Shown: positions 8,146 to 53,100 of the stretch, piece after piece | Position numbering within the stretch: the stretch's first letter is position 1 | How the letters are laid out: the number at the start of each line of letters is the position of its first letter | NCBI GenBank assembly: GCA_023078555.1 | Contig: CM041196.1 | Location: 11,426,985 to 11,490,984 of the forward strand | Length of the DNA stretch: 64,000 nt | Origin: Ulva prolifera | Taxonomy: Eukaryota; Chlorophyta; Ulvophyceae; Ulvales; Ulvaceae | Reading direction: 5' to 3' | Notes under the pieces: model-generated | What the model was told of the DNA's origin: nothing | Database searches by the model: none | The model's input: only the letters and a program-made list of their open reading frames with translations | Translations under genes and position numbers: made by a program

Positions 8146-8225
8146 ACACACATCGGCGATTGTGCTTCCTCGTTATCCAACCGGCCCCTCCGGCTTTGTC
8201 CTTGTAACACACATCGGCAATTGTG
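8146..8225 (+). mobile_element. 42-bp LINE-C tail insertion with 19-bp target duplication
   Basis: Direct repeats at 8146-8164 and 8207-8225 (ACACACATCGGCRATTGTG, 18 of 19 identical) flank 42 bp (8165-8206). The insert ends in CCGGCTTTGTCCTTGTA, matching the 3' ends of the LINE-C copies at 21.0-21.7 kb and 55.0 kb. This is the signature of target-primed reverse transcription with extreme 5' truncation. Orientation is plus. Confidence 0.85.
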
Positions 8226-9030
8226 ATCCTGGCAGTCCGCAGCTCTCTGAGTCCATGGACTGTCAGAGCCCATGGCCTGTCAGAGCCCATGGCCACTGCG
8301 GATCTGGCTAAATCGCCTCTGCTTCACTTTCGCATGCATACGTGTCCACAAGCAGGAGGCCCAGAGAATGCCCAGGTGTGGCCACAGGGGTACACAGTTT
8401 GCCCATGCGGGCAGCATCGGCCACAGCCGCCACCATGCGACTGGGATGCATCCCCAGCAAGCCAGGCCACGGTGCAGTCCCGGGCCACAATGACCTCCAC
8501 GCTTCAATTAATTGCAATTGTTGCAACATGCAAGTTGCAAGCCAAAAACTGTTGCATGGCCACGGGTGCACCCGTAGTCCGGGGCAGATGATAGCCACAG
8601 GCCGAGCGTGCACGATCATCGGAAGCGGATGTGTGGCGCTTTCGCTGCAGTTTCCATGGGATGGACGGCCAGCCAGCTCACAGCTGGGAGTGGGCCTTCA
8701 CGTGAGAGCATGCATGCAGCAAAATTCCACTTGCCTGCTGTGCGGATGTCTGTGGCCATCTCAATTCGGATGCCCACGAACCCCGTCTTCTGCCTTTGAC
8801 ACAGGCGCACATGCATGCCCACGGCAGCTGCAAATGAGTCTGCGCGGAGTCGAGACAGGGCACATCCGGTGCGGTCTCCCACAGGCTAATGCGCTGCAGA
8901 GCATCTAGATCTGCACATGCGTTCACATGCACTGGCACACTGTACGACAGGTGCAAGATCTCCGGAGGGGAGGGGAATGCTCAGGCACACACAAAACCAG
9001 GCATGTGAAAACAACAGGGCAACAGGGCGC
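8226..9030. other. open frames on both strands, no supported gene
   Basis: Frames of 60-190 codons overlap on both strands (for example 8342-8908 plus and 8616-8882 minus). None shows a domain, a signal peptide or a splice chain. Perhaps a degenerate coding remnant. Confidence 0.25.
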
Positions 9031-9205: not shown

Positions 9206-9326
9206 GGGAGGGGCGCGGAAGGGCGTACGTTGGAGTACACGTGCAATGTTTGTTACTAACAAGTAGAGGGGCCAATAATGGCCCCTGCAGGCATGGGCTG
9301 GCCGGCTGGCCGGGCCGGGCGGGAGA

Positions 9327-11044: not shown

Positions 11045-11152
11045 CACATATCGACAGTGAATTACAAAAGAGTGAACGGGAGAAAACAAACACTGAAACC
11101 GAATCTCATCCGAATCAACTTCAACACACACACTCACACATATCGACAGTGA
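11045..11152 (-). mobile_element. 76-bp LINE-A tail with 16-bp target duplication
   Basis: Direct repeats CACATATCGACAGTGA at 11045-11060 and 11137-11152 are identical. They flank 76 bp (11061-11136) made of the LINE-A 3' tail in minus orientation (starts ATTACAAAAGAGTGAACGGG). Only the 3' terminus was inserted; no coding sequence is present. Confidence 0.92.
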
Positions 11153-16053: not shown

Positions 16054-19000
16054 CTACATCTTGAACAGCATACCAGGCTTCATCGCCCGCACATTGTCAA
16101 CAACTTGCATCGTAAGCTCCGGCAGGCCACCGTCGCCCCCTCGGGTCACCCCACATCCACCGCACCCCCGCACATCCACCTCCTCAATGCATGGCAGTCC
16201 CTGCACGGCTCGCGCAAGCGCCGCGACTCCCTCCGGCTCCCGCCACTCCTGCCGCACCACCAGCTCACGCAGCCCTTTCGGCCCATGCATATGCACCGCA
16301 GCAACAGGCTCGGCGCTGCACCCGCGCAGCGCCGCCGCGATCGCGCCCACCCCCGCCGCAGTGAAGCGGTTGCCGCTGAGGCTCAGCCGCGTGAGTGCGG
16401 CGCCCGCGCACACCCCCGCCGCGAGGCGCGCCGCCGCCGCGTCCGCACCCATGCAGTTGTCGTCGAGCACGAGGTCGCGGAGCGTGGCGCCGCGCGCATG
16501 CATGACGTCCGCGAGCGCCCTCGCCCCCATCTCCGAGAGGTAGTTGCCGCACACGTGGAGCGACGTGAGCGCCGGGAGGCCGGCGACCTCGGGCGCGAGT
16601 ACCGCCATCTGGTCACCCGTCATGCGCCAGTTCAACAGCCCGAGGTGCCGCAGGTGCTTCGCGGCGGGGAGGTGCTCCGCTGCGGCGGCCGCGCAGCCGC
16701 GCAGGCCCGTGAGCGTGAGCCTGCGGAGGGTTGTCTGCGCACAAACTGCAGCGAGGAGGCGTGCTGCGTGCTGTGGCTGGAGGCTCATTGCAGAGCCGCC
16801 GGGCGGGGGGGAGGCAGACAGGGTGAGGGAGCTCAGGTTGGACGTTGCGCTAAAACCACGGCTGATTGCCGTAACACCTGCGATACGATGTGCTTGTGTC
16901 AGCCCAGACGTCCGCCTGGCCACTCACAGCGGAGTTTTGGCAGCACACACGTGGCGGGATACTATCTGTTGGATGTAGTCGCCAGGAGACTCGACAAGTG
17001 CTCGAGAGTGCAGCGCCCTCACCACGCCGCATGCACAAGCACAGAATGCCTGCCTCTCGGTTACTGGACAATGCCATTGAAGCAGACAAAGCGGTCACGA
17101 AGGCGTTGGCTCTCAGTGGGCACCCACCAGTATGTATGTATACAGGCCTGGCGGTATGGCCACTGCACGGTGGCATTGGAGCAGCCACTGTAATACACGA
17201 AACGCATGGCTCCACTCGGGCACGTATACAATGTACAGCATACGTGCTACTATTGTGTACAAGTGGGGTAGTCCGTGCCTCGCTCATCGAGGGATATGCC
17301 CTCCAGTCGCAGCTCCTGCAGCTCCTTGGAAGCCTCCAGCAGCAGCCCCACCGCCTGCGCATCATACGCGGCGCTCTGGAGCAGCCCGCGGTGCTGCGCC
17401 CCGTCGCGCCGCTCCGCCGCGTCCACGAGCTCCAGCCGCGTCAGGCCGCGGCAGCCCGCGGCAAGGTGGTGGCAGAGTTCGTGCATGAACGTCGGCGGCA
17501 GACGGCCGCCGGCAGCCTCCGTTGCGGCGCCCTCGTGCAGAACGAACTCGCGCAGGCCGCTGATGCGGCCGATCGCGGTCGCGAGTCCCATGTAGGGTTC
17601 CGGGGGCGTTGGCGGAGGTGGTGCGTGCATGCCTCCCTGGACCCCCTTGGCCACATCGGCATCGACGTGTACCGATGCGGTCGGGCGTGAGGTGGTGAAG
17701 GGGGAACAGGTTGGAGGGACAACGCAGTGGTCGAGGGTGACGGACGCGAGGTGCGGGAGCTCTGCTGCTGCATGCATGAGGCCCATGAGATTGCCGGTCG
17801 GCATGCGGACGGCCAGTGCGAGCGTGCGCAGATCACACAATTGTGTGAGGTGCTTTCTAAGCTGCGCTCCTGGTAGGGTTCCCCGCCCCCGCAGCTCGAG
17901 GGTCTTTAGCCTAGTCAGCTGCATTGCCGCCAGTTCGAGCGCAGGCATGGCCGGCAGTAGCTCGTGCGCTACAGGGTCCCCGGGGATCTGGAGGGAGAGG
18001 GCTGTCAGGCCGGAAGCTTCCGGAAGGTTCGCAGCGAACTTGGATGCGAACTTTCGGGACGTGCCGAGGATGACATGGAGGGAGGAGAGGTGGGGCAGGC
18101 GGCAGGCCGCCAACGCCACATTTTCAAACTCCCACGGCAGCGAGATGAATGTTTCAGAGTCGAGGTGGCGGCAGTCGAGCGTGAGCTGCCGCAATGCATG
18201 GAAGCGCACGACCGCATGGGCCGCCGGCAGCGCGCCAAGGCGGAGGCGCGCCGCGGCGGTCACCGCGAATACGCCGTCCGCGTCAATGCATGGCCACCAT
18301 GCATGAATGACTTTGGTCCAGAGGTGGCGGGGGAGGTGGAAAAGGCCGTCAGGGTATGCGACACCGGTGGTGCTGCACGGGAGGGGGTGGCGACCGGAGT
18401 GGTGGTGGGGGAGGAGGGCAACGCGGATTAGCCTCACCGCCAGGTCATGGTTCAGCGTTGACAGCACCTGCAGATTGACGTGAAGATTGGTGTTTCCCTC
18501 ATGGATGTGAACGCACAGACCACACACTGAGACAGCGGAGAGGCAGCGATTCTGATTGCTCGCTGCTGCCGCAGCGCATGGCATGTGTACACTTCAGATG
18601 TCACAGAAGGGTCAATCTGCAGATGGGTGAGTATGGCACGCGTGGCAGTGCCGAGGTCCGCCTGCACGCGGTTGGTGTGACACGTGTACAGGCTGACGTG
18701 GCTCGCTGTACGCACCCGGGACTGAACGACCAAATCGATCTGGAGGTCACCATGCATGTGTTTCAGGGATTGAGATGCAATTAGCACCGCAGGCGACAAG
18801 AGCTGGACCACAGGAGCATACGTGACCATGCATGTCTGGCAGTTGCTAGATACACATCTGCGCGCGGGTGGTGGCAGGGGCTGGTGCCGGGGTGCTGTGT
18901 TACAAAGGAAAAAGCCGGGGTGCTGTGCACACCTGGGATGCCCATGCAAGGTCGAAGCGGGCCCGCTGGTGGGGGGCAACCTGGTCGCAGGGGTGGGTGC

Positions 19001-21027: not shown

Positions 21028-21536
21028 ACACACACAGGCCTCGCCCGCGTGCCCCGGCCCCCGCACACGGCGCGCCTCGGCCGTGCTCCGTTCCGGGTTT
21101 CGCGGATGGGGGCGCCCCCATGTGTGTTGTCCCGGCGCTCGGGGCTGGCCTGGTCGGGGCATTGGGGCGGGGGTCCTGGGGGCCCCCGGCGGCTTCCGTG
21201 TGGGGCCGGCGCCGGCCGGGCCGCTGCATGGGGCTGCCGCAGCCGCGCGGGCGGCGGGGTCGTGTGGCGTGTTGGCGTGTGGGTTTGTGGGTGCTTGGGT
21301 GTGTGTTTGGGTTTGGGTCTGGGCCGCGTGCGGGTGCGTGGGTGCGTGGGTCGGGTTTCAGTGTGTGGTTCGTGTGGTAGTGTGTGGGAGCGTGGGGGTG
21401 TGTGGGTGCTTGTTCTGCCTTGGCGTTGGCTGTTGCGCTCCTGCTGCGTGCGCTTTGCGTTGTTCGTGCTCTCCCTTTTGCTCCTGGCGGTGCTACCGGC
21501 CCCTCCGGCTTTTTCCTTTATAACACACACACAGGC
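21028..21536 (+). mobile_element. LINE-C 5'-truncated copy, about 485 bp
   Basis: A strikingly GC- then GT-rich segment (21040-21524) ends in CCGGCCCCTCCGGCTTTTTCC and TTTATAA. Direct repeats ACACACACAGGC (21028-21039 and 21525-21536) flank it. The duplication is low-complexity, so it is weaker evidence than others here. Base composition differs sharply from its surroundings. Long frames on both strands result from composition, not from a recognised gene. Confidence 0.68.
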
Positions 21537-21722
21537 AGTGGGTGGGTGTATGGGCGTGGGCGTGTGTGTGGCTGTGTGGCTGTGCCCAGCCCGGGTGCTG
21601 CCGTTGCATGGGTGTTTTGGTGTGTGCTGCGTGTGGCTTGTTGCGTGGTGTGCGGTTTCCCTGGTTCTTGCTTGCGGTGTTATCTGCCTCGCTTGCTTTG
21701 TCCTTGTAACACACAGGCAGTG
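21527..21722 (+). mobile_element. second LINE-C tail inserted at the end of the first
   Basis: The 14-bp repeat ACACACAGGCAGTG at 21527-21540 and 21709-21722 flanks 168 bp (21541-21708) ending in TTTGTCCTTGTA. The insertion landed exactly at the 3' boundary of the preceding LINE-C copy, giving a tandem head-to-tail pair. Confidence 0.8.
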
Positions 21723-22591: not shown

Positions 22592-22638
22592 GTAACGCTC
22601 ACCTCCTCGCTCACCCGACGGGCTGCAGTGAGCGTTAC
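22592..22638. promoter_or_regulatory. inverted repeat upstream of ABCG gene A
   Basis: GTAACGCTCAC (22592-22602) and GTGAGCGTTAC (22628-22638) are perfect 11-bp inverted arms, ending 232 bp before the ATG of gene A. The same arms occur upstream of the paralogue B (54441-54517) although the spacer differs in length. Conservation of arms but not spacer suggests a dimeric factor site or a pair of sites; a structural role is also possible. Confidence 0.5.
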
Positions 22639-22870
22639 GACCACCACTCGCCAAAGGAGGATCAAACCGACAGCGCGCATGTGACCGACATCTTCTCATG
22701 ATCTAATGGTCTTCTAATGGATTCAAATACAGAGTGTCCTTCAAGATGACAGCGATTCTGCCACAGCACTGCTTCTTCGTCACAAGTGGAAACTCTGCTC
22801 TTCGACCTCCGAAGGCAGCGACGACCCACAAACATTTCTTTCAGTTGTCTACAAACCTTGCTGTTTTTCT

Positions 22871-25800
22871 ATGGTTCTTGGCGTTGACCTTGAAGCTAGC
22901 ATGCCGCCTGGAAGCAAGCAGGAGCCCGTAGCCACGCCAACGAGCGTGCAGAGCCACGCAGCGAATTCCAGACCTTCCACGGGAGTTCCCGTCGTCTTCA
23001 AGGTATGCACAACTTCCGGGACGATATTCTTTCGGGGCACCTTGTCGTAATTGTGCACTGGCCCAGCTCGAGGCTGTGGGACTGGCCAGCTAATTTGCAC
23101 ATTGCATTCGACTCGCTTGGGTGCAACGCTGGCGCAAGAATCTCTGATTAACAGCGTTTGAATTCTTTCGTGTGGTCTGCACTGCTTTCTCGCGCTGAAG
23201 GTTGGCTAAGGGTGCAAAGATATGGACCCGCACTCGAGAACAGGTAGCCAACATTCTACAAACATTGCATGTACTGTTGCAATGAAAGACGTCCATCAAC
23301 ATTCGTTTTACCTTGACTCCATACCGTCGACTTCCTGAATTTATAGAAAAACGACAACAACGAATTTCCTGCTGTCAAACAGCAGGTGAGCCAGCCTGGC
23401 CGAGAGAGATCCGCTGCATGGGGTACTGCCCGCCAGGACTTTGACTATGTCCTTCGTGGCTGCCCTGGGCTGAATCTCTCTCGCCTGAACCATGCATGAA
23501 ATTGAACGTGCCTCGTCATTCGGCGAACGATGTGATCGGGGCACAGCAATTGTTATCTCAAGACGGCTACTTCAATTAAGCCCTCGTGGGGGGGTGTACA
23601 GGTGCCTCAGCACTGTTTCTGTTCTCATCATGGCGGCGTCGCTGCTCACAGTCTCAAGTTGACAAGCCCTGTGTCTCTGCAGGATCTGTCGTACACCGTC
23701 AAGTCGGCTCAGAGCAAGAAGGAGAGTGCCCGGATCTTGAGCGGTGTTACTGGATGCTTCTCCCCCGGGCAGATGTCAGCCCTGGTGCGCAGCCACTTCG
23801 CCCCGGTGTAGCATCTGCATAGTATGCAGTGCATACCACTTCAGCGAACTGTATCAATTGCAGTAGTATGGTGATGCCGCCTCCTTGCACATCGTTCCTG
23901 GACCCGGATGCAAAGGCCTTCTTACGGGCGCGCTCCCTTGATTATCCCCCCCCAAACGACCCTTAACAGTGCGTGTTGCAGCGGAATTCCAGCGCTCAGG
24001 TAGCTGCCCGGCTGCATGCATGCTGCCATGAGCAGCAGCCGCTCAAGCCGTCTGAATCTCTGCCATGTGCACTCAATCGCCGGTGCTGCTGCAGATGGGC
24101 GCCAGTGGCTCTGGCAAGACGACTCTCCTCGACGCCATCAGCGGTGTGCCCCCGTGCTCTCTCGCTATCGGGGTATGTGGTCCCGTCAACGCAGAGTTGT
24201 CAATGTCCAATAGGATACGGCTGAGTAAATTCAGATTTGCTTTACTGTACTGCCCCCATTGGCTAGCCACGCATGTGACTCAGCTGCCACCTGTCACGAT
24301 GAACAAGTCCATCACGACCGGTGGGCGCTGAGTCCCATGCATCGCTGATCGATGCTGCCTATGAACCAATACAGCGCTCCACTCGAGGCAGATGTCAAGC
24401 ATGACAAAGGCATTGCCCGCGCTGCTGTCTCGGAGGCCTGCTGAGTCCGCACTTCAGCTCAGATCCCTCGAGCTCGAGCCACTGCACCCGGCCACTCTCC
24501 ACTTCATCCAGGCAGCTGGCTCAGCAGAGCAGTTTCCATCCGCTGCTGACCTCAAACATGCGCGAATCACTCAGCTCCTCCTCGGTAGCCCGGCCAATCA
24601 CCCCAGCTGCAAGGAGACCGATCAGGACTTGCACACGCGCAGGTCGAAAGACGCTGGGCAAGCTGGAGGGCGAGATCCGCTACGCGGGGGCCTCCCCGTC
24701 GCGGCCATTCCTGCGGCGGCACACCGGCTACGTCGAACAGGCCGACACGCTCATCGGCGTGCTGACGGTGCGCGAGATGCTGCTCTACACCGCCGAGATG
24801 AAGCGGCCGGTTGATGAGCCGCTGCAGGAGAAGCGGCGGGTTGTGGACCGCTGCATCGACGTGCTTGGGCTGGAGGGGTGCAAGGACACACGCATCGGGA
24901 ACCGCCTCACCCGGTGCGGCTCCCTGCATCCTTCTGAATATCACTGCGCTACACTGTGTGATGTCTCTATGCTTGCATCGGCCGTTCCGCCATACCTATC
25001 CTATTCTGTGAGATGGCTCGGGGGGTACCGGTGCTCCAGGTGATTCTCGCGTGTCACACTCACGCCTCTGAAATGCGGTGGAGGAGGGTTCAGTGTACGT
25101 AGGTGATGCGGTGGCGTCACATTCGAGTTGTTGGTGTGTGCAGGGGGGTTTCGGGCGGGCAAGCTAAGAGGGTGAATGTGGGGCTGGCACTGGTAGTGGA
25201 CCCGCAGGTCCTCTTCCTGGATGTGCGCCCATCCTCTCTGCACCCGTGCCGGCACGGCCATATGCATGTTTTTTGTAGGCACAAAGGACAGAGGCTGGGC
25301 ATCGAGCCGTTTCTCGGAATCCACTCGCAAATCCACTCACTCATTCATGGCACTAGGCCGGGCACGAGCGCGTACCACAGCCCTGCCGGTGATTCCAGTC
25401 AAGTATTGAAGCCCCGCGCGGAGCACAATAGCATTCCCTTTACACAACGCCACGCTCAACCGGCCTGTTGTATGTATGGCCATATGCACGAGCTGCAGCT
25501 GTTCAGGCCTCTCTGTAGCATGTCCGGCATTACATGCTTTACTTTTACTTGACATGCTGAATTTCCATATTGCAGTGCCCTGCAGTACCTGTTGATCATT
25601 GCAGCTGGTTTTGGGTTTCTAGAGTATATTGCAAGCCAAGGCAGCGGCATGCGATCAGGTCTGCTGTCGTACGCAGCATCGGCTTCTGTGCCATGGGTCT
25701 GATTCCCGGTCAACGAATCAAGGCTTCCCCAGAGGCAGCTCGGGCACGCCTGCATCCGCACGCACCTGCATGTGTCTGCATATCAGAGTTGGGTCGCTTT

Positions 25801-34178: not shown

Positions 34179-34299
34179 CCTTTGTCCACACTTCTGTAGT
34201 TTACAAAAGAGTGAACGGGAGAAAGCTAACCGAATCTCACTGAAACCGAATCTCATCCGAATCAACAGCGACATCCCCTTTGTCCACACTTCTGTAGTT
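34179..34299 (-). mobile_element. 75-bp LINE-A tail with 23-bp target duplication
   Basis: Identical 23-bp repeats (34179-34201 and 34277-34299; core CTTTGTCCACACTTCTGTAG) flank 75 bp of minus-oriented LINE-A tail. The reverse of about 38.95 kb (TGCACACCTTTGTCCA) shows the target without insertion. Confidence 0.9.
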
Positions 34300-34369
34300 C
34301 CTTTGTCGACAAACGGACGTCCACCGGCCATATGCCACTGTCTCTAGCACTGCAGCTGCACTGCAGAGA

Positions 34370-35612: not shown

Positions 35613-35621
35613 ACCCATATT

Positions 35622-36662: not shown

Positions 36663-36852
36663 GGTACCAGGGACGATGCGGTGCCCAAGCCGTCCCCGTA
36701 TTCCCTGCGCATGCCACCAAAGTCATGCCGCACGCGAGACGGAGCCGGCCACCCGAGAGCCAGAGGCCATCTGTCGGTGGTGCCAAGCGGGCGGGGTCCC
36801 CGAGGGGCAGCTCGCCGCTCAGGCCGGATGACCTGTTAGCGGCGAGAGGTCA

Positions 36853-37430
36853 TCAGACGGGATTGTGAGTCCCGCCAAAACTGCCTTGCCCGCATGACGT
36901 GCCATCAGCGGAGCCGCGGCGCTGACGTTCGAGGCAGGCCCGCGCGGACCTGGCGTGCCACTGCACGACAGAGCGTCGTGGAGAGATCGCGCATTGTATT
37001 CTCGAGGAATCGCCGCCGAGAGGCCGCGCGAGACCTTGCAGCCACATCAGAAAGCCTGTTGAGCAATGCGAGGGCGGCCGGGCCAACCCGTCCGTACGTC
37101 TCATGCGACAGCGGGACCAGCGTGAATGGCCCGCACCGGCCCGGCCGTTTGCGCCGGTCAGCGGCCTCTGCCGAGGCACCGTCGTGGAGCGCCGCGGCGC
37201 TGACGTTCGAGGCAGCCAGCGGGTGGGTGACGCACACGTCGCCGATCAGCAGCGTGTCCGAGAAGAACGCCAGGATGTCACCTCGCTGTGCGGGTCTGCG
37301 AGACCGGGGGACAGCCGTCGCGATGGGGCAGCCTGCGCCTGGACTGACCGCTGCGCAGTGGCCATGGGGTGCCCAAGTAGCAACCTGCCCAGTCGAGCAA
37401 GTTCACGCATGAAGCAAGATCATTCACAGG
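36853..37430 (-). mobile_element. LINE-D C-terminal fragment
   Basis: Minus codons read GDILAFFSDTLLIGDVCVTH, then PLAASNV, AEAADRRKR, FTLVPLSHETYGRVGPAAL and LSTTLCRA. They follow the order of the LINE-A and LINE-B C termini but are distinct in sequence. It is a 5'-truncated, somewhat degenerate copy. Its 3' tail was not delimited. Confidence 0.7.
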
Positions 37431-39966: not shown

Positions 39967-40017
<51 letters not shown>

Positions 40018-40248
40018 TCCTCCTGGCGAAGGCCCTGTCGCACCCTGCGAACCTGCATGCTTGCGTCAGGCTAGGTGTCTGCTGGGCCACCCGGCATGCC
40101 GCTCCAGCACGTCCCATCGCTGTTCCCGACTGCCACAATGCCTGCAGGACGGAATATTAAACTGCTCAAAGCAATGACAGGCCCCGCCGGTAGTACTGCG
40201 TCTGCCCGCCGCGGCGTAGCCTCGCGACACCGCGCGGGCGTTGTCCGC
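38801..40248. other. 5' region of gene D with simple repeats
   Basis: A 42-bp tandem duplication lies at 39203-39278 (TGCATACCCCAACAGAAGTC …). It is followed by a small hairpin at 39284-39306 (CGGTAAGCATT arms). A (TA)n tract lies at 39969-40015. From about 40070 the sequence matches the reverse of 32.69-32.89 kb, the 5' region of gene C. Confidence 0.6.
39969..40015. repeat. (TA)n microsatellite, about 47 bp
   Basis: Uninterrupted TA dinucleotides. The open frames across it are artefacts of the repeat. Confidence 0.95.
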
Positions 40249-43200
40249 ATGCTGTGGCGCAGCACGGCCCCCCTCCTTGGGCTGCTGCTGCTCACTCTGA
40301 CCACGCTGACAGCTCCAGTCCGCGCAAACGCCGATGCAAACCCTGACGACCAATCGCTGATTCTGCCTGAGGCCGTAAAAGCCGGGGCATCCACTTTGGT
40401 GCAAGGGTCCCGCCTGACGTGCAATGGCGGCATGGCGGTCGGGTTCGTCATCGACGGCTCTGGCAGCGTTGATGCGGTCGAGATGGCTGAGATGAAGAAT
40501 GATGTGCGCCCAGAACAGCTTGGGGCCACCCTGTACTGGCGGTGACTGCCCGGCTGCAGCGGGCTCGCATCACGTACCGGCATGCAAATTACCAGCATCA
40601 TGATGCACTGGTGACTACTCCACCCAACTACCCCACAGTGCAACCCTATAGCTATAGTGCCGTGACGGCGGCCAGCAGCCCCTGCGACAGCGTGTCGTTG
40701 AGTCTAGGAGGGCCGCTGCCGGCAACTGTTCTGCTCATCTTCACAATTGCGCAAGACCGCCATCATATGCATGTCGGAGCCTGCCTTGTGGAGCTTGCTG
40801 TCCCTGCAGCGCGCCTGTCCCCGCCACTGCCTTGCATTGAAATCACTTCCATCATCAATTTCAAATCGGTCCCGCTAGCATGTACACCTGTGATCAGGCC
40901 ATTGTATCAAGCTCCAAAGATGTGACGCGTGAGAATTGTCTTGCAGATCGCCGACTTCATCGACCAGATCTCCTCAGACAACGACCCCAACCCCAGCCTC
41001 TTCTACGCCAACCTCTTCGGCACCGGCCTCCGCGACTCGACCGGCCCGGGGGGCTTCCGCGACAATGTCGGCAAAGCCGTTTCTGACAAGGTCCGCCTGC
41101 GCCACCACGTTGCCCCACGTGCGCTGGCACACCATGCACGCCGACTGTAACCAAGATCTTGAATCTCTGGCGTCATATACCTGCTGTACAGTCCCTTGTA
41201 CGATTGTTGTTGTACAATATTGCCTGCATGCCAGCCAGTGTCCCTGAGCAGCAGTGACGTACTGCACACACCGATCTGCCAGCGCGGAGGCCCCGCCAAG
41301 GTCCACTGCCAGTTCCAAGGAGAGGCATACAGTAGCTACTCGCCGGTATACAGAAGGCCGAGTCCACCTCGCAGGCGGCGGCCTCCGTAGGAATCCTCAG
41401 GCGTGCACACGAGTTGCTGCATGCCCTTGTGTAGCTGGCGGACTAGGTCTGCCTGTTGCGTGGCACGCAGCTAGCTGTGCGCCCGCCGCAGGGTGCCCCC
41501 CCTAAATGCGTGCGCGTCTTTGTCTGCCATAAATGTGAACATATTCGCGATGTGGTGCTGTTTGTCGCCCCAGTTTGATGCCCTGCGGTGTCATGATGAG
41601 TCATCAGCACTCAAGTATATACATGACCAGAACCTCAAAGGAGTAGTACACCTTCGGGTGGGCGCTTTTCCTGACATGCGGCTCACCCGTCGCACCCTGA
41701 TCGATATCTAAATGCGACGCGGGCGCTTCGATGGCCGAGTTTGTTCGCTCCAGATCTGCTCCATCATGTGTCACCTGGCATGATGCATGGTAACTCCATC
41801 GAGTAACAGTTCGTCCATGCCAGTGACTCTGCTGTACAAGGACATATGCATGGTCGGAAAGGCGGCACACAGGAGGACACCATGAGAGTCTGTCTGTGCC
41901 CGTTAACTCTTCTGCAACAGTCATACAACAGAAAGCCACATGGGCGTAGGTGGTGTCATCGTCGCTGTCGTCCTCACGCACCAAATACACATGTACAGAG
42001 GCAGCAGCTCTACGGCACCTTGGCCACCCAATGCCGCCCGCTTGGCCACACGCCCTTACGGCACCTTGGCCACCCAATGCTGCCTGCTTGGCCACACGCA
42101 CCAAATACTCAAGTGCTTTCGGGTGTGTGGCACCAAAGGCTGTGAGGGTGACTGCACGGCCACCAACCAGAGTGCATCGAACCGCCGCCATGATCTACAG
42201 CAGTCACTGGTGTCGGGTCGCCGCGCAGCAGTTTCGGCGCTACCATCCAAATATCATACCCAAAATCGTGGGATTTATTGTATGTAATTGGACTCGAAAA
42301 TCCAACATGTGCATGTGCTGCTTACCTGGTTCAATCTGCAGGTCCGCGCGTTCCAATCAGACTTCGGCAAGCAGGCCTCCTCCGTCGCCGACGGGCTCTT
42401 GGAGATGGCTTTTGAGTTCTCTGGGATCACAGACCCCGTGTACGCGGCGATCGCATTTGTCTTCATGGACGGCGTTTCCTCTGATGACCCGCTTCTGCTG
42501 GCTGCCGCGGCACAGGACCTGAAGGACTCGACCATGGCGAACCTGCACTTCCCGGTCACCGTCATTGGAGTTCCCATCGGACCGGCCGTTCCGATCGCAA
42601 CGATGAACGCGATCGCCAGTGACCCGGACCTTGTGTTGGGAGGGCCGGCATTCAACCGCCTCTCGCCGCCTCTGGAGGACGGCATACTTGCCGTGGGTGC
42701 GCTGTGTCCGAAGTGCACACAATTTAAGCAGGCATGGATGTGCTTGTCATGATCAAACATGCGGCAAACAGTCGGCAGCTGGGCAGTGGGTGCATTACCT
42801 GAAGAGTCCTGCATGCATATGGATCGCAGGACGTAGACCTTATACCGACAGTGCACCAGCATCATGCATGTGGCAGCATGTGTGTCATTTCATGATAACT
42901 GATCATTGAATCCACGGCGGGCGATGTGTGGAAGCTGAGATCTCTAGAGGTTTGGGCGTTCATCCTGTGCTGTGCTGTGCTGTGCTTGTCGAGGCCTGTT
43001 CTCCCGTGCGCAGCTGTAAGTACAGTAATTACACAAGAACCGATCGGGAGAAGACAAACCACACCACAAAAGCTGTAAGTACAGCTGATAGTGCTGCAGA
43101 CACGGACGGCGACACTGTGGCTGACTGCGACGACGGCTGCCCCACCGACCCCGCCAAGGCGGACCCGGGGGTCGACGGCTGCCTCGCCCCGCCGCCCTCC

Positions 43201-44999
43201 TGCCGGGGCAGCTTTGGCTTTGTGATCGACTCATCGACCAGCTTTGGCCAGGCCAACTTTGACGACGTGGTCGCACAGGTGCGATCGTCCGCACCATTGA
43301 GAGGCTTTCCCTGGCTACAGCAGTGCCCGGTGAGCCGGTGTCAACGAGCAAAGGCCCTGGAACGAGGCCGGGGCTGTCAGAATTATCTCATGGCACCTGC
43401 CACCATCGAGTCCCAAGAACGGGCTCATGCTGTGTACCAGCTTGTTCACCCGACCGCATCATGCTCATGCGGACATGTCTAGGGCCATGGCCAAAACGAC
43501 GGCGATGCTGATGGAGCCCTCATCCCAAAACTAGCCCCAGAAATTCGCGATTACCCCCGTGTGCAGGTGTCGAGCTTTATCTCAGACAATTCCGAGTTCA
43601 CCACCCTCGGCGTCGCCAACAGCAACGAATACTATGCCGTCTCCTACACCACCGTCGTCGACGACCGCACCAACCTCTTCTCCCCAAATGACTTTGATGG
43701 CATTGCCACGAGCACCGCGACCGCCTTATCCTTCGCCGGTGGCGCCACCAAGGACACGGCGGTTGGCCTGAGCGATCTCCGGGAGCAATTCCTGCGCCAG
43801 GTTAGGCATCCCTCTAGTATTCACTGCTAGTAGTAGTGCTGTGTTTTGCGTTTGTGTTGCGGCCCTTCACTCTAACAGCTGCAGCCTCTGCACATATGTC
43901 ATGCATGAGCTTTCGCGTGCGTGTGACGCCGCTCTGTGTGTCGCTTCACATCTCGCAACTGACAGCAGCACGATGCAGCTATCGATTTGTTATGACTGCT
44001 CTGAATCAGGAGGGTTGCGGGTATACGAAGCGAACAATGTGTGTAAGCAGCTGATATCCACAACATGCGCTCAAACATTAACCACCGCACTCACACCCAC
44101 CTGCCATGTGCTGTATATTAATGTTGTTGAGCCCCCACATTTCAATGTGCCTTGCAGGACGAATCGGGCCTGCCGAGTGACGCGCGCTTCGCCTTTGTCA
44201 TCACCGACGGCATCGGCGACGCCGTGCCGCTGGTCAGGGCCGCGGCCAAGTTGCTGAAGGCCCGCAGCGAGGTCATCATCGTGGTGCTGCCGCCGGCCGG
44301 CGCATTCAATGCAGCTGTCGTGAATGCGATCGCGTCCGAGGACCAGAACGGCGCCAAGCTGGTGGTGCCGATTGCAGATTACGCACAGCTGGCAGCGGCG
44401 ATGGCCCGCAGCCTCGCGACCCTCGGTGCGCCTTGACTCGTGACTGAAGTGCCGTGTTTGTGCGGGCATGTCATGATCATTTGCGTACACGGATTCTGTG
44501 CGGGATGGCGTCGAAGCGCCCGCATCGGCTATGGCTGTGGTGCTGATGCGAAAGATGACATGTCATGTACCTACTCCATGGGCCAAGGCCATGGCATGTT
44601 GTAGCACCAGCACAGGCTGTGTATTCCGAACCATTTGATCCCGAGGCTCGTCCAGCACACAGATTGACAGTACCAGCTGAGGGCAGACAACTCTAGGGGT
44701 ACAAACAGCACATGACTGGCGCGTTGTTAAATGTGTTGTGTGAGCCAGTATGCCTGCACTCCTCCACGTCGCTGCTGTGAAGCGCTCGGACCTGATCAGA
44801 TGGAACGACCCCGAATAGTTAAGTATTTGACAGTCTGGATGGCAGCCCTAGAAGTGCTGCAAGGCAATCCAACACCGATGGTTGTGCAGACTCTGATGGC
44901 GACGGGACGATCGACTGCATGGACGCATGCCCGCTGGATGCGCTCAAGCTGGATGGCGGCCTCTGCGGCTGCGGCAAGCCGGAGGTGGCCGGCTGCTAG
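40249..44999 (+). CDS. secreted protein with two VWA domains and TSP3-like motifs, gene D
   Basis: Seven exons join in phase: 40249-40503, 40947-41090, 42342-42696, 43100-43278, 43567-43800, 44158-44425 and 44890-44999 (1545 nt, 514 residues). A signal peptide (MLWRSTAPLLGLLLLTLTTL …) is followed by VWA domain 1. Its MIDAS is DGSGS in FVIDGSGSVD, with later strands FVFMDGVSSD and VTVIGVPIG. A thrombospondin type 3-like Ca-binding segment (DTDGDTVADCDDGCPTDP) follows, then VWA domain 2 (DSSTS in FVIDSSTSFG; FAFVITDGIGD; VIIVVLP). A final DSDGDGTIDCMDACPLD motif ends in a short Cys tail before TAG. The apparent TGA at 44434-44436 lies just after a GTGCGC donor, so the real end is exon 7. VWA domains bind protein ligands through a metal ion, so an extracellular adhesion or matrix role is likely. 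Donors are mostly GTGCG. Intron 3 carries a 45-bp LINE tail close to the acceptor, and intron 6 ends next to a decayed MITE. Confidence 0.9.
42011..42101. repeat. 46-bp tandem duplication in intron 2 of gene D
   Basis: Two copies of a unit starting TACGGCACCTTGGCCACCCA (42011-42056 and 42057-42101). The equivalent intron of gene C (about 31.4 kb) has a single copy, so this doubled after the arms diverged. Confidence 0.85.
43012..43084 (-). mobile_element. 45-bp LINE-A tail with 14-bp target duplication, next to exon 4 of gene D
   Basis: AGCTGTAAGTACAG (43012-43025 and 43071-43084) flanks 45 bp (43026-43070; TAATTACACAAGAACCGATC …), a diverged minus LINE-A tail. It ends 29 bp before the exon 4 acceptor, so it lies where the branch point should be. 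Confidence 0.8.
44775..44878. mobile_element. decayed hAT MITE before exon 7 of gene D
   Basis: Aligns along its length with the 14972-15073 element (shared GACCTGATCA, CCCGAATA, GGCAGCCCTAGAA, GCAATCCAACACCG). Termini are degraded. It ends 11 bp before the acceptor of the last exon, so the acceptor region may be partly MITE-derived. Confidence 0.65.
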
Positions 45000-45335
45000 C
45001 CAGCAGCTCAGGATGCCAGCTGAGATGTCAGGCTGTTTATTGAGCCCTCCGGGCACTCCTCCCAGTGGCACCTGAGTTCTCTGGCGAATAGAGTGGATGC
45101 GATGGCTCCCAATCTTCGCTGCTGCTACCTCTTGTGGCGAGGTCAGCAAGGGTCTCGATGTCTGTACACTATGGAAATTGTTTTGCGTTTTGTGGCTGAA
45201 GGAGGAGGAGCGCTATGATGGCTTTGCTGTACATGTATGTTGTTGATGCTGTTTGAAGCTTACTGAAGCTTACTCCCGTGCACCTAGGCAGATAGGCAGA
45301 GAGTGTGGATCACGTGGCGTCCAGGCTGCACACTA

Positions 45336-45380
45336 TGTGGCAATCCAGTGATATGGCCGCTATACCACTGGATTGCCACA
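45336..45380. repeat. 15-bp-arm hairpin
   Basis: TGTGGCAATCCAGTG (45336-45350) and its exact complement (45366-45380) flank a 15-nt loop. It was not seen in the corresponding part of the left arm. Confidence 0.85.
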
Positions 45381-45571
45381 CACTACGGTAGTGAGATGTA
45401 GACAGCGTGGGACTTTATAGGCTAAGAGTGATTCCGATTGTGAGTAAATGAGTGCACGTCCGCAGCCCTGATTTCTCAAAGTTGTTGTCTGCTGCCTGCA
45501 TGGCTGGAGAGATGGCGCATAGTGGCTCTCTAGCAAATAAATACTGCATACTTCGCTTGCGTTGGACCAGG

Positions 45572-45691
45572 CCTCAGGCCAGTGTTGGGTCGCGGTGCAG
45601 CATTTCCAGAGCTGCCACCCAGAAATGGAAGCTGAATATTCGGAATTGTTCCATATGTGATTGGGCCCGACAACCCAAGACTGCCTGACCT
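45572..45691. mobile_element. hAT-type MITE, filled in the right arm only
   Basis: The element 45580-45683 has termini CAGTGTTGGGTCG and CAACCCAAGACTG. The flanking 8-mers (CCTCAGGC and CCTGACCT) are only partly alike. The matching left-arm sequence at 29943-29958 (GAGGTCTGAGGTCTGG) runs through without the element, which confirms it as an insertion. Confidence 0.8.
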
Positions 45692-47105
45692 CTTTATTCC
45701 GGTCTAGGAAACCTGAATCGGCCTGAGAAGGGGACTGCAGATTTCTTGCATAGCATTTCATAACACTCTACTTGATGTATATGCGCGTTCGGTCGCGTGA
45801 ATGCGATGAGATGGGTGACACACTGCGACACGCCTGAACGTTCTCATGATGATCACGGACTCTCACAGCGAACTCTCACGAAAATGGAGGGATGGACACG
45901 GACCTGATAACGTTATGCCTATTTCAAGTTCTCCTTGGGGCTATTTCCGCATTGCGATGCGACCTCAGTCCAGTTCTCCCGGCCATCAGCGCCTGCAGCA
46001 GAGTTGGGGAATGCTGGAGCACGAAGCGGCAAGTAACCTAATGCCAGAGCTAGTTCCACGACGAACGTCAAGTACTTCAATTGCACCTGCACCAGCGTCT
46101 CCTCAGCGTCTCCTGGCACGTGAACAGCCGCTGCGCCGTGGCTGCGCATGCAGTTCGGCGATGTGAGAGGAGACAGGCGCAACTTGGAAAATACAACTCA
46201 CGAGCATGCAGCAGAAAACGAAACTTCCAATTATCGAGTGTTTCTGCGCAGTACCGATGATAGATCCGGGCAGGCGTCTGTCTCAGCACACACAGCTTCC
46301 GTATCGGGCAGGCAAGATAGATGAGCAAGACGACGCAACGTATCCTGCTTTCCCGAAGAACAGCTCTGATAATGAGACAAATATCTCTGCGTGCACTCTG
46401 CAGACGAGAATGCTTCATCCGTCCAAACTTACGCACTTGCGCCTGCCGGCATGCACACGCAAGGGTCGAGACGCTGCTTAGAACAGGGGCTCGTTCAACA
46501 ACTGGGCCGCCGTGCTGTCTTCAGTCCCCGGTCATGTAGCGAGTCTCAAAGAACGCTGCCGCTATGATCGGGCGGCATTGGTCAATGATGTATACCGCAA
46601 GTCGCGGTCCGCAACTCGCGCTGAGCTAGCTACTGCCTCTACCACCTTGACCAGCAGATAGTCTCGTGGAGTGATCATAGAGGCCATTGCAAACAGATGA
46701 GAGACCAGGTGCACCCCAGTGTTCAGGCAGGCGAACATGATCTAAAATGTGCAACGAATCGTTTACACCAAGATTCGAACCGGTGCCGACGAAGCGGCAT
46801 TGATTCGCAGATACAGGCAGCTTTTTCAGGTAAGCAGCCGCGGAAAAGCCAAAAAATTTTGAACCATTCTCGATATTATGCGTGTCATCCTTGCGCAGGG
46901 AACATGCTAATCTTCTCTGTATCGTTCACAGTAATTATCAGATGTCCCGAAGGACAACATCAGGGGCGAATTTGTTGTCTATATATCCGAAATGATACTT
47001 GATCGAACAAACGTTCATACCAATGGCGCCATCGTGCACTCAGACGCCAGCTAACCCCCTCCACGTCTCCCCACGCACCACCATTCATTACATCATGGCA
47101 CTCCT

Positions 47106-50100
47106 CTACCGCTTTGCAAAGCTCTTGAATTGGAGCGCCGCCCAAGTAGCCACAAAGAACACTGCCCCGAACAGGCTCTCATACCCGATGTACCCCCACA
47201 TGCTCTCCCCAGCCAGGCCGAAGTATTCCAGCACCGGCTGCTCGGCGATCTGCGGCACGGTGCCGTCGTCGGCCTTCACGTCCTTGAACACGTTGATCAT
47301 ATGGGCGCCCCAGCAGTAGCGCATGAAGTTGAGGTAGGAGAACCACCTCCAGTAGCCCGGCATGTTCTCAAAGCGGAGTGCAAAGCCCGTGAAGAACAGC
47401 ATCGACGTCTGCACACCAATGCATACCTTGACCGGGAGTGCTCATGGGGTGGACCCGTGTCTGGTTTCCAGGTGCGCGCATGCATGCGGTGGTGGTGCAG
47501 CATTGGCTCTTGCATCATCATCAGGGCCGCCACCCAGACCCTGTAGCCTAGTTTTCTTGGTTGTCCTACTAGGCCCTTGCAATGTGTAACCGGGTTTACA
47601 GACCCAAATCTGCAACAGTGCGTGGCAGCACTGCATGAGATGCCGGAACGTGGTTTGAGTGCTCTGAATAGGCCATGCAGTATGCCAGCTCTGCAGTGGC
47701 GCGGGACAGCACGTGCACTGCATGAGATGACACAACTTTTTTGGCTAGGGTGCATGTCCCCAGAGCCTGTCATCACGATGGCAACACCAGGTGTCAGCGA
47801 TCAGTCTTTGCGATGCCATGCCTGCCTGCTATCGAAGCAGACCGGCAGCAGGGCTGCATCGCGTGACACTCCTCAACGGCACATAAGCCATGCAAACTAT
47901 CGAAGTGGACCGGCAGCAGGGCTGCAACGCGTGACACTCCTCAACGGCACATACGCCATGGAGACGTGCCCCGAACAGAAGGTCCCGCCAGCCCGGCACT
48001 GCCACACATGTGCCAGGCTCTCTATAGAGTACACAGAATAACCCCCCCGGGGGGACACCACATGCACATGGGGTTGCCGATCACCCAAAGACGATCGCCA
48101 GCATTCACAACATAAAACATTCATATGAAGATATCTCAGTTTTGGAACCATGCTCGACACATCAGTACCGGCAACTCAAGAGCACAGCCACAACAGCAGA
48201 CTCCGTTACGCAAAGGGTAGCTCCAGAACCGCGCCGAGTGCGGCAACATCACATATATCCAGTCTCATTAGGTATTAATGTCTGAACGGCTGCCCTAGAA
48301 GTGCTGCGAAACGACCCAACATTCCTCCAGCAGGAGGTTGAAGCTGTCAAAAACCAAGCTCTGGAGGCGCACCACATACGCCGGTAGCGCGGTATTTGCA
48401 AAGTCCATCGTCGGGGAGAGCGCCGCGACGAGGTACCCAAGCATCAGCCCGGCCGCGAGGGTCACGAGGTACGTGAACCAGAAGACGAGGAAGCTGCCCT
48501 GCAGCTCGATGACGTAGAAGACGAGCGCCGAGAAGAGGACGGATGAGAGCAGGAGCACCGCGAGCTCGTCGATGATCTTCGCGGTGAGGTAGGTGATGGG
48601 AAGGTAGAGGCCGTCGGCGCGCTCGCGCACGTACAGCGGCCGCTCGAGGAAGAGCTCTGGGACGAATGAGGTCGCCGTGAAGCTGCACGGCAGGGCGGGG
48701 GCGTTGAGAAGCCGTATGTATCATGCGTCTGCAGGCTGCCGAAACACGCACACCACGGCATCAAACACACAGGTATTAAAAACGCCTAAAACCACACACA
48801 AACACCCAAACAGCCAGCTGTGGCTGGGGGGGGAGCGCACGCAGGCAATGCGGTCCACATGGAGAGCACCGCCGCGACGTTGGTGTAGTTTGTCTCCACG
48901 AGCTCCGAGCCGATGCCGCAGTAGAGCGTCGCCATGAGGATCGAGAAGACGACCTTGTCGGAGAAGCGCTGCAGCAGGAAGTCCGGGTCGCAGTGGTTGC
49001 GCACGGTACGGTACCTCACCAGCGTCGCGACGCCCTTCCACCACGGCGTCACGGCAGCGCCGCCGCCGCCGCCGGCGACGAGTGCGGCCGCGGTCCCCGG
49101 CGCTGTTGTGCACGTCTGCACAACACAAGACAATGGTATCATTATATTGCTTGCGAGTGGCTCGTGACGAGTGACGATGAAGGGGTGCATCACCCCGACG
49201 AGTGATTCGAGGACTGTCCCGTGAAAGCCAGCCGGAAATCGAAAGTCGCCGGAGACAGTCCGGGATGCTCTGTCGCAGGAGGTGGCCGCAAAACGAGCAT
49301 GTAGATGAGTGCACGTATGTGGTTGCAGCTGCGCGATACGACTGATCAATGTTGAGGATCGTGTGGACACTGCAGCACGAGAAACTAGCGAGATAGGTCA
49401 ATGTACATACATGGCTGTACACGGTATGTTGCCGGGCCTGTGGACTGCTGTACATATGCATCCCACATATGCATCCAACATCCAATTCCGTATCCAAGTC
49501 ACCAGTCAGGGGGGGCAACTTGAAGGGGGACATGCCTGCGCGCTTTCGTCGGCGAGTGCATGCATGCGGGCGCGCATGGCGCTGGCGCCGTACGCCGCGA
49601 CGTACTCCCCCGAGCGGCCCTCCCGCTGCGCGCCCACGACGAGGTCGGTGAGGAACTCGGCGGCGTTGCGGATGCCGCCGGCGGCCGCCGTGGCGTGCCG
49701 GGCTAGCACCGCCTCCGGAGGGGCGACCCCGCAGCCTGCAGCAACGTTGACCACTCGGAACAGTACCGTTGGTGAGTAAGAGATTTGTTCCGAGGATATG
49801 ACACGCGTGCGAGTGCCTGTGTGCACTTCAAGACACCACTGTTGCTGATTATTATAACACATCCCAACTCACATCTGTGTCGTGTGGTGCTCGCACGGTG
49901 CCACACACTGATGGTTTGTCCTTGTAACACACACTGATGGCCCCACCAGTCAGACTTCCACAGTATGTTGCGTTGGTGTATTTTCTGGGGTGACATCCCC
50001 ACCAATAGCTACAATTTTAAGGGTGGGCGCACTGTGCAGCAGGAAGTCAAGCATCTCGTCGCCGTTGGGGCCGTGGTACGCGACCTCCCCGCCCGCGAGC

Positions 50101-53100
50101 ACGAGCAGGCGGTCAAACAGGCGGAAGCAGAACTGCGAGGGCGCGTGGATGGTGGCGCAGACGGTGACGCCGCGGGCGGCCACGTCCCGGACCGCCAGCA
50201 TCACCTCCTTCGATGTGTACGAGTCCAGGCCCGAGGTCGGCTCCTGCATGTTGCGGCAGCATGCATGTCATTTACATATGTGTACGCGGCCGCAGGCATG
50301 TGCGTGCATGTTGCGGCAGCGTGTGTACGCGGCCGCATGCATGTGCGTGCGGGTGCAGGCGCGCCAATGATGCAAGGCTGTTGCGTGCCGGCACGAGGAC
50401 AATAATCATCCACCTGATCAGAGGACAGACCCACAGAAGCAGTGCATGCTGCGTTTGCCAGCAGACATGGTCAGGCACGGCTGTCTGCGCTCAGAACACA
50501 CACAACCATCCATGCAGGATCCACAGTAAGACAGCGCGCGTGGGGGACGTTGTCGCAGCAGTTCACTCTTGAGGAGCGGGAGCTTCTGCAGGAAACTCTG
50601 AGACGAAGATCAGCTGCAAAACATTGACAGTGTCTGCGCATGGAGCAGTGTTGGGTCGTGGGGCCCAAACATATAGAACAATTCCGAATGTGCAGGTCGA
50701 ATTTCTGGATGGCAGCCCCGGAGAGGCTGCAGAGCGACCTACCACTGGCGTGCAGGCCGCCGAAAAGTGCCACCACCTCTGGTGCTGTGACAGACAGACT
50801 GCAGCGAAGGAAGCTCGAGGACCCAGGTAACATTGAATCATGTGGCAGCATGCACATGGCCGTGCCGATACGGGCATGCGCAGAGGCGCGGAGGAGCGCA
50901 CATCGAGGAAGAGCACCCGCGGGTCCTCGACCAGCGCCAGCCCCACATTGGTCCTCTTGGCTTGCCCGCCCGATATTCCCCTGCACACTCCGCCTCTCTA
51001 ACCCCACTGCGGAAACATACTGAGTTTTTCAATGCCCCTCAACCGCATTCCATTGGCGTTATGCTACAGGAGGCTCATCTGTGCCGCATGAGACTCCGAG
51101 CCCTCTGAAGCGCCGCCAGAGGCACCTCACAGAACAGGATACGGACGGCGATGCAGATGAAGAGGCAGCGCATAGTGCAGAACACAGCTTCTCATCAGAA
51201 CCGCGGAGTCGCACCGGTTGAGGCTGTTCCCGATGCGTGTGTCCTTGCACCCCTCCAGCCCAAGCACGTCGATGCACTGGTCCACAACCCGCCGCTTCTC
51301 CTGCAGCGGCTCATCAACCGGCCGCTTCATCTCGGCGGTGTAGAGCAGCATCTCGCGCACCGTCAGCACGCCGATGAGCGTGTTGGCCTGCTCGACGTAG
51401 CCGGTGGACCGCCGCAGAAACGGCCGCGACGGGGGAATCCCCGCGTAGCGGATCTGCCCCTCTATCTTGCCCAGTGTCTTGCGGCCTGCGCAGCAGAGGT
51501 CTCTTCGCTCTCCTTGCAAGTGTTGCAAGTGGGGTGCTTGGCTACCGACAACGTTGTAGCATGGGCCCGGGTGCTTGGCCGGGCTACCGACAACGTTTGA
51601 ACCTCGTGGATGGCACAACAGAGAGGCCAGCAGCAGGAGTTGCTCAGCTATGCCAATTGACTGAACCGGTTGAGTTGTGCCTGGCCCTGCGGTCAGAGCG
51701 CGTCTGCGATCAGCCACGGTGCGATTGCCCTTGTAAGCAGGCGTCCAGAGGCAACAGCATGGGCGATGCGCATGGTCTACTGAACAGCTGCCGTTCGCAG
51801 AGCTGCAACTGCAATGAAAATGCAGTGCTAAAACTGAAAAACTTCTATATATAATGCTTCAGAAGCATCATCTAGATTGTTGACGCTCACAAGCAGTATG
51901 ATCACTAGCGCCGGCAGGTAGCTTGGATGCATGTTTTGGTCCCGGCTCCCAGAGTCGTCAATGCCCAAATGGATATAGCTGTTGTTACTCCTTATGTAGT
52001 TACAAAGGACAGAGGCCGGGCAGCGAGCCGTTGCCAGGAATACACACGCAAATCCACTCACGCAGTCATGGCACTAGGCCGGGCACGAGCACGTACCACA
52101 GCTCGGCCGGTGATGCCAGCCAAAGATTGAAGCCCCGCACGGAGCACAAGAGCATTCCCCTTGCACAACGCCACACTCAACCGGCGCAGAGCATTCGTCA
52201 CAAACAAAGCACGGTTCACCTTACCACACCGAGACGCAACCTCTGCCAGCCGATTCAAGTGATTCATGGCAGGCCGCCCCAAGCGACCATGCGTCTCATG
52301 CGACAACGGCACGAAACTGTACGCATCAGGGTCGTACAAACGATAAGCAGTGCGTTTCTGCACGTCCCGCGTCTCCGCAGCACCCCCGTCCTCGCGGGCC
52401 GCACGGCCGCAATAGGAACCAGCACAGGGGTTCACAACCGACACATCTCCTATGCACAAAGGGTCGCCCGGCGGCATACTCCTTATGTAAGCATGCATAC
52501 ATACGCACGTGCGCGGCCTGGTGCCATAACTGAGTGAGTGGACTTGCTCGTGGATTCCGAGAAATGGCTCGTTGCCCGGCCTCTGTCCTTTGTAATTACA
52601 AGTGAAAATTGGGCCACATGCGAGCAGACGCCGAGAGGGAACAAAAAGAAAACAAAACCCCAAACAAAACAGAGCACGGGGGCACACCGCTGATGGCGTC
52701 GAGGAGAGTCGTCTTGCCAGAGCCACTGGCGCCCATCTGCAGCAGCACCGACGAGTGAGTGCACATGGCAGAGATTCAGGCGGCTTGAGCGGCGCCGCTC
52801 GTGGCACAAACCATGCAGCAGGGCAGCAAGCTCAGCCATGTGATTCGGCTGTTCACTGTGTGGCCGCTGCTTGCACCATTTGCAGGGTTTACGTCAGGAG
52901 AATGACTGGCATGGTTGTAAATGAGGGGGGGGCGCTGAAGGCCCCACATGTCTGGTAGGCGGCACTCATGGCGTGGGCATCTACATGCTACATGTTGCAG
53001 CGAGCCGGTCTGCACATGTGCTGCATAGCGACACAGCGGCCGTCTGAATGAGTCACCATGACCTGGGACCCTCGATCGCTACTAGTAATAGTATAATAGT

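Follow-up and report, generated by a model that had tools for sequence, protein, structure and literature searches.

How short can an insertion left by a long interspersed nuclear element (LINE) be and still betray its origin? This question is raised by a 64,000-nt stretch of the genome of the green alga Ulva prolifera (88.9 Mb in 44 contigs), C1:11426985-11490984, to which we refer as the window and whose positions are counted from its first letter. At several places in the window, two direct repeats enclose nothing but the last nucleotides of a LINE, in the most extreme case 13 of them. We argue that LINEs without a poly(A) tail gave rise to these micro-inserts by 5′-truncated insertion, a reading to which we assign a probability of about 0.85.

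The observation itself is real. An earlier note on this DNA had claimed at least a dozen sites with the order repeat–insert–repeat and had named nine of them; we checked those nine and found the structure at 9/9. In the two most compact cases, the insert does not exceed its own duplication: on the forward strand, a 13-bp micro-insert, TTTGTCCTTGTAA (49915-49927), is enclosed by identical 13-bp duplications, CACACACTGATGG (49902..49940), and on the reverse strand, a 14-bp micro-insert, TTTTTCCTTTGTAA (18900-18913), similar to a tail variant at ~21.51 kb, is enclosed by identical 14-bp duplications that start with CACA in the orientation of the insert (18886..18927). The tails fall into at least three families, A, B and C, and the 13-bp insert is a tail of family A. 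To the same family belong a tail of 42-43 bp with an 18-19 bp duplication containing one mismatch (8146..8225, forward strand) and one of 168 bp with a 14-bp duplication (21527..21722, forward strand); the left duplication of the latter is preceded just upstream by the end of a diverged tail, and the 168-bp tail has 42 genomic matches (best 40 of 1009 candidates scored). Family C is represented by a 478-bp tail with the 13-bp duplication TACATAAGGAGTA, which codes for the last 138 codons of the LINE protein (51986..52489, reverse strand), and by a family C-like tail of 211 bp, 86-88% identical to family C copies, with an 11-bp duplication (25256..25488, reverse strand). A further insert measures 45 bp and has a 14-bp duplication (43012..43084, reverse strand). 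A terminus of TTTGTAA or CTTGTAA, which had been said to be present always, is missing from two of the nine sites: the 45-bp insert (43026-43070) ends in TTGTGTAATTA and the 211-bp insert (25267-25477) in CTTTGTG followed by ~13 extra nt.

Are such tails more frequent than expected? In the window, an exact scan that requires TTGTAA to lie a few nt at most from a repeat of ≥10 bp and allows inserts of up to 700 passes seven sites; when the hexamer is permuted in 59 other ways, each permutation scores 0-2 (mean 0.31). Six of the seven sites are called exactly as listed; the insert at 8165 is scored as 49 bp because of the mismatch in its duplication, and two listed sites are absent because their ends are variant. 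In a wider scan of 339 kb with inserts of up to 1500, a set that includes LTR (long terminal repeat)-element regions fetched while seeking parent elements, TTGTAA passes 25 times compared with a permuted mean of 3.25, a less marked contrast than in the window. The highest of these permuted counts (TATGTA 21, ATGTAT 18) we ascribe, as a conjecture, to the family C target TACATACA and to LTR elements. Genome-wide, the 13-nt tail TTTGTCCTTGTAA occurs 813 times on the forward and 804 times on the reverse strand, 1617 times in total, and its reversed control 0+1 times; with equal base composition, ~2.6 copies of any given 13-mer would be expected by arithmetic. The tail is directly followed by CACA in 601+575 = 1176 of the 1617 copies (control 0), and the tail of family C by TACATA in 282+271 = 553 cases (control 0). 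This count starts at 13 nt; below that, point-mutated longer tails would swamp the inserts. Genome-wide, the tails thus lie above their control by orders of magnitude (1617 vs 1), and the window, too, shows more of them than of the permuted hexamers (seven vs a mean of 0.31).

Tails of this kind are accompanied by target duplications. For a census of family A, the first 100 tails listed on C1 were merged into 93 loci, the first 60 of which were fetched and contain 67 tails. A duplication with a score of at least 9 was found for 31 of these 67, whereas 40 permutations of the flanks between loci averaged 2.2 and never exceeded 5; counted per independent locus, it was found at 25 of 58. The duplications mostly measure 9-34 bp. 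In our own reading, the insert length that they define agrees to within 6 nt with the second-longest extent of homology in 17 of 21 automatically scored single loci (e.g. 151/151, 165/165, 106/108 and 22/25), the exceptions being L062, L063, L071 and L088. Inserts of 13-40 nt were recognized automatically in L068 (22 nt, with a 21-bp duplication), L080 (23 nt), L074 (28 nt) and L070 (33 nt), and by eye in L060 (13-14 nt, tandem x2), L050 (~24 nt), L081 (26-27 nt, tandem x4) and L069 (28 nt). That the inserts represent 3′ ends of LINEs, complete with target duplications, is supported by this 17/21 agreement, by the continuity of family A with a coding LINE and by paralogues that are free of the insert. 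At one further locus, L101, an inverted copy of the tail's own last bases adjoins a family A tail.

Both junctions of the inserts are distinctive. The four bases that follow the 67 family A tails are C in 64, A in 61, C in 61 and A in 57 cases, with an exact CACA in 47/67; past this motif there is little preference, apart from a scarcity of A in the fifth position (4/67). With C directly after the tail in 64/67 cases, the 3′ junction is fixed and free of poly(A). Families A and C thus each have a sequence-specific target, CACA and TACATA, respectively; for family B, no fixed target was seen at the few sites available. Extra nucleotides at the 3′ junction are found in L086 (14 nt, perhaps added as reverse transcription began) and in the 211-bp insert mentioned above. 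At the 5′ junction, the left duplication closes with bases that resemble the LINE sequence just upstream of the truncation point: this microhomology averages 1.48 nt compared with 0.51 nt in shuffled pairs, a mean reached by 0/2000 shuffles, and at least one base matches in 17/23 cases. It was scored in 23 of 25 cases, L050 and L063 having no usable reference, and some rows are placed with an uncertainty of 1-3 nt. In the eight short cases, for which there is no null of their own, the mean is 1.25, driven by one five-base case, and three of the eight have no matching base.

Do the shortest inserts form a class of their own? To describe the truncation rate, 60 of the 67 tails were used, leaving out L045 and L065 as copies of L043 and L063, respectively, and five tandem repeats in L060, L069 and L081. 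The length is resolved by the duplication in 32 of them, two with a score below 9 (L047, 6; L098, 8), and by homology only, with approximate values, in 13; the remaining 15 extend beyond the stretch seen. In the bins of 13-40, 40-80, 80-120, 120-160 and 160-185 nt, there are 8, 6, 5, 5 and 4 duplication-resolved events, corresponding to hazards of 0.0055, 0.0034, 0.0035, 0.0041 and 0.0071 per nt. The overall hazard is 28 events per 6458 nt, or 0.0043 per nt, and the deviation from a constant rate is not significant (chi-square 2.09, 4 degrees of freedom), although the counts are so small that a modest excess at short lengths would go undetected. With the homology-only ends added (11, 11, 5, 7 and 7 events), the hazard becomes 0.0064 per nt, again without a significant deviation (chi-square 5.59, 4 degrees of freedom). 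When eight copies were extended by 400 nt, four of them showed longer inserts, of ~307, ~407, ~457 and ~470 nt as measured by eye. Eight of the 60 inserts fall into the range of 13-40 nt, which, extrapolated from this part of one contig to all 1617 tails, would correspond to ~200 such inserts. The earlier note had inferred a reverse transcription that ‘aborts at once’, as a class apart; no such class is needed, given that stopping fits a constant ~0.4% per nt over 13-185 nt, and the micro-inserts resemble the low extreme of a single truncation distribution.

Sites without the insert can be sought among paralogues, as the window contains two inverted paralogous arms (22543-32951 and 40034-54566) that are locally 70-96% identical. 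Additional paralogues lie nearby at C1:11504637 and C1:11514596, and an open reading frame (ORF) of one arm (27849-28604) shows a weak match, just below the cut-off, to an ABC-2 transporter domain. Opposite the 13-bp site, the other arm (~26.2 kb, inverted) carries the target once, as CACACACTGACGG, and lacks a tail. The 45-bp insert is kept in the paralogue at C1:11504637-11504873, and is absent from the other arm and from C1:11514596-11514695; likewise, the opposite arm (~50.85 kb) has no counterpart of the 211-bp insert. In the interval opposite the 478-bp insert, there is no family C match, and the alignment is poor. The flanks of the 14-bp site are single-copy in the genome and hence offer no empty site, the flanks of L068 matched other family A tails, and a paralogue of the 13-bp site on C4 (L117) gave no alignment across the site. 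Diverged paralogues without the insert thus appear to lend weak support to two sites, the 13-bp and the 45-bp ones.

Where do the tails come from? In one family A copy, L061 (extended by L106, L112 and L114), the tail is continuous through a 3′ untranslated region of ~560 nt into an open frame of 1012 codons, which runs off the fetched 5′ end. Residues 43-257 of L114 match the R2 reverse transcriptase in the PDB (9nl3, E-value 8.2e-6; 9dou, 1.1e-5), and the Pfam family RVT_1 is matched with an E-value of 8.8e-5, under its curated cut-off. In the C-terminal part, a cysteine/histidine cluster, ARHN, GDVCV and KRDKY (L112; KREKY in L113) can be recognized by eye. In the portions of PMC5678591 that we draw on, the restriction-like endonuclease of LINEs is marked by RH and KX2KY, and the CCHC zinc knuckle upstream of it has the form CX2-3CX7-8HX4C; the spacing of the cluster, again by eye, is CX1CX8HX3C in family A and different in family C. 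Judged from these matches and motifs, the parent of family A is a LINE with an R2-like reverse transcriptase and putative restriction-like-endonuclease motifs that inserts at CACA. A decayed copy of its C-terminal coding region, 83% identical to L113, is found in the window (36683..37355, reverse strand). The C-terminus of family C has the same domain type, with RH present and KRTAY (by eye). Pfam and PDB searches returned no match for the C-terminal regions, and a C2H2-like finger was seen, by eye, only in a related frame in L039/L040.

Several other elements were considered as parents and rejected. A search for RVT_1 (best 150 of 452 candidates) and 20 fetched regions gave mostly LTR elements, including Gypsy; a family of 1357 aa has an integrase; and a 6.17-kb family has duplications of 4-5 bp (by eye), while one stretch of ~205 bp matches both of its ends. 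This stretch recurs in the window at 61756-61965, where it is probably a solo LTR (matching L019, L020, L021 and others). An APE-type LINE occurs in 25 places, and a comparison by eye, within the range listed, showed no family A tail close to the 3′ side of its copies on C1. Three of seven C1 copies have a same-strand family C tail within 6 kb downstream, and in L118 (C1:1771790-1772390), family C is also found in TACATACA at the apparent 3′ end of this LINE. There, a truncated and internally deleted family C copy in TACATACATACA lies right after the end of an ORF that is in frame with the upstream APE domain; family C therefore appears to be nested in this element rather than to form its own end. 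Another locus, L103, lies past the end of that APE ORF and is uninformative on the tail.

A number of points weigh against our reading. No duplication with a score of at least 9 was found within 185 nt for 36 of the 67 tails, many of which are longer inserts, and 13 tails end in homology (extents of ~17-180 nt) without a clean duplication. Of the 31 duplications, eight are confined to three tandem loci and a ninth belongs to a duplicated locus; some contain mismatches, and in L086 the 14 extra nt separate the tail from the right duplication. Reading by eye supplied nine of the 32 resolved lengths (L050, L053, L060, L069, L077, L081, L083, L086 and L091), including four of the eight that fall between 13 and 40 nt. 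The insert-free sites are old paralogues, not alleles, and deleting the 13-bp insert together with one duplication lifts the alignment score only from 37 to 40, a small gain because the far flank has diverged; for the 45-bp insert, the score rises only from 55 to 57. Finally, the parent of family B was not found, the reverse transcriptase of family C lies outside the fetched sequence, and a single-sequence model of the endonuclease fold of its C-terminal part is poor (predicted local distance difference test score, pLDDT, of 39.6).

Do these points favour another origin? The 13 tails without a clean duplication, as well as the internal deletion in L118, would be consistent with formerly longer LINE copies that were cut down later. 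As a general explanation, this is improbable: an intact left duplication abuts the tail, so that the deletion would have to stop exactly at the edge of the duplication every time, and both the smooth length distribution and the microhomology of the 5′ junctions to the target speak against it. We give somewhat less credence to the idea that the tails are templated patches, left where LINE RNA or DNA was copied during the repair of double-strand breaks, and not target-primed insertions. Microhomology at one junction is also a mark of end-joining repair, but patches predict two random edges and no target preference, whereas the 3′ edge observed here is nearly always the same LINE end next to CACA or TACATA, with duplications of mostly 9-34 bp (this comparison covers 3′ tails; no search aimed at patches of internal LINE sequence was made).

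Even less probable is a short, non-autonomous element resembling a SINE (short interspersed nuclear element) with its own fixed 5′ end. Many copies are indeed non-coding and shorter than 600 nt, yet a SINE would have a fixed 5′ end and no coding parent, and for family A, to which this argument is confined, we find many different 5′ ends and one copy that is continuous with the 1012-codon LINE frame. Least of all do we expect the sites to be products of chance, or of ordinary tandem duplication by slippage, with a spacer that merely resembles a LINE tail. Repeat–spacer–repeat structures are common, and the majority of the 39 in the 339-kb set have no LINE tail, so that the structure by itself proves nothing. 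What discriminates is the tail, with its 1617 copies compared with one in the reversed control and ~2.6 expected by chance; moreover, the duplication is on the proper side, CACA adjoins the tail, and permuted flanks yield 2.2 instead of 31.

Truncated insertion of LINEs without a poly(A) tail is thus the reading that we prefer. It has to account for a fixed LINE 3′ end next to a preferred target, for duplications at many sites, for abrupt 5′ ends at any distance of at least 13 nt, and for microhomology. In the mechanism that we propose, an endonuclease would nick the target, and reverse transcription would begin at the fixed 3′ end of the element RNA (…TTGTAA), without poly(A). Copying would then stop with a roughly constant chance of ~0.4% per nt, the short complementary DNA (cDNA) would be attached, by way of microhomology, to the far side of the staggered break, and the duplication would arise through fill-in. 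Given a constant chance of stopping, very short inserts would be the expected low end of one truncation process. The enzyme, breakage of the RNA or end-joining by the host may make the copying stop. We would give even odds to the broader proposition that insertion completes at almost any cDNA length, with constant stopping and no minimum for the second-strand steps; the genome would then hold hundreds of inserts of 13-40 bp from a single family, still shorter ones, and arrays formed by repeated insertion at the restored target.

Such arrays are a feature of family C. Among the best 40 of 1136 candidates, 17 of 40 loci carry at least two tails within 200 nt, on one strand in 16 of the 17; the gaps are duplication-sized (6-15 nt) in 17 of 26 cases, and many arrays contain copies of unequal length. 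Three of the 17 arrays, all on C7, resemble copies of one array. On C1, which accounts for 95 of the 100 family C places listed, 55 of 95 tails have a same-strand neighbour within 1 kb (32 adjacent pairs on the same strand, 1 on opposite strands), compared with 17 of 100 in family A (10 and 2 pairs, respectively). Head-to-tail arrays with differing truncation lengths are found at C1:4130704-4132100, C1:4491254-4491357, C7:6450362-6451230 and elsewhere. Unequal copy lengths are not expected from duplicating one insert, so that repeated insertion at a restored TACATA target is the better reading for such arrays, and they suggest that family C inserts repeatedly at a target that each event would restore beside the new copy, allowing head-to-tail arrays to pile up. 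On the other hand, equally spaced arrays such as L081 fit the tandem duplication of one insertion better. In L081 (a 39-bp unit x4), L069 and L060, it is a family A micro-insert together with its duplication that is repeated in tandem, possibly a case of minisatellite birth from LINE micro-insertions. In several places, family C tails recur every 926-930 bp (C1:10900425-10902281, C1:12394993-12395919).

The window contains a few further features. Two family B tails belong to the nine sites, one of 75 bp with a 23-bp duplication (34179..34299, reverse strand; relatives at 11061, 34058, 34927, 35055, 35622 and 36603) and one of 76 bp with a 16-bp duplication (11045..11152, reverse strand). Positions 58637-60773 are 91% identical to L103, which is positioned downstream of a copy of the APE-type LINE, and contain a 123-bp unit about ten times within an open frame.

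What do these inserts mean for the study of LINEs? In mammals, poly(A) tails mask short LINE insertions, so that the shortest truncations are difficult to observe. With a fixed end that has no A tail and a known target, by contrast, inserts are recognizable down to 13 nt, and the stopping rate in vivo could be measured directly. A class of small indels could then be assigned to retrotransposition; such events would otherwise pass as ordinary small indels. The sites also suggest that a short cDNA suffices for joining and duplication.

L1, the APE-type LINE of mammals, adds a poly(A) tail and prefers T-rich targets, whereas the insertions described here have no A tail and target CACA or TACATA, and the parent of family A has putative restriction-like-endonuclease motifs. 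In other respects the two are alike: L1 insertions are anchored at the 3′ end, variably truncated at the 5′ end, flanked by duplications of ~10-20 bp and marked by 5′ microhomology, and severe truncation with microhomology at the 5′ junction is described as standard in human L1 in parts of PMC2912911. Extremely short cases are also on record, namely a 6-bp Alu remnant with a 40-nt A tail in SERPINC1 and a 112-bp L1 insertion in PTEN (excerpts of PMC4859970); the former comes with a 1.4-kb deletion, whereas here the duplications are intact at many sites of one genome. The assertion that such inserts are ‘not a described class’ is therefore too strong, although our searches of the open-licence PMC literature listed no report of LINE inserts as short as their own duplications. 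As to the cause of L1 truncation, passages of PMC4859970 regard low processivity as unlikely and suspect host factors, and a section of PMC2666801 proposes end-joining as the source of truncated insertions.

With the LINEs that carry a restriction-like endonuclease (CRE, R2, R4, NeSL and HERO, as well as Utopia), family A shares the R2-like reverse transcriptase and may share, as read by eye, a cysteine/histidine cluster followed by RH and KX2KY. They are also alike in their sequence-specific targets, which include microsatellites, and tandem insertion is mentioned for Utopia-1_NVit (both in portions of PMC4640811). By contrast, the knuckle spacing of family A departs from CX2-3CX7-8HX4C and its target measures only about four bases; the likeness is drawn from the reverse transcriptase match and the motifs. 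Togen, a group of (TG)n-specific fish LINEs related to NeSL, has a similar target of the TG/CA type (same portions of PMC4640811), whereas family A needs little past CACA and no TG array; this comparison is by target only. We class the phenomenon as ordinary 5′ truncation that can be seen to an unusually short limit, down to 13 nt because there is no A tail; what is unusual here is this visibility without poly(A), together with the same-site arrays of family C.

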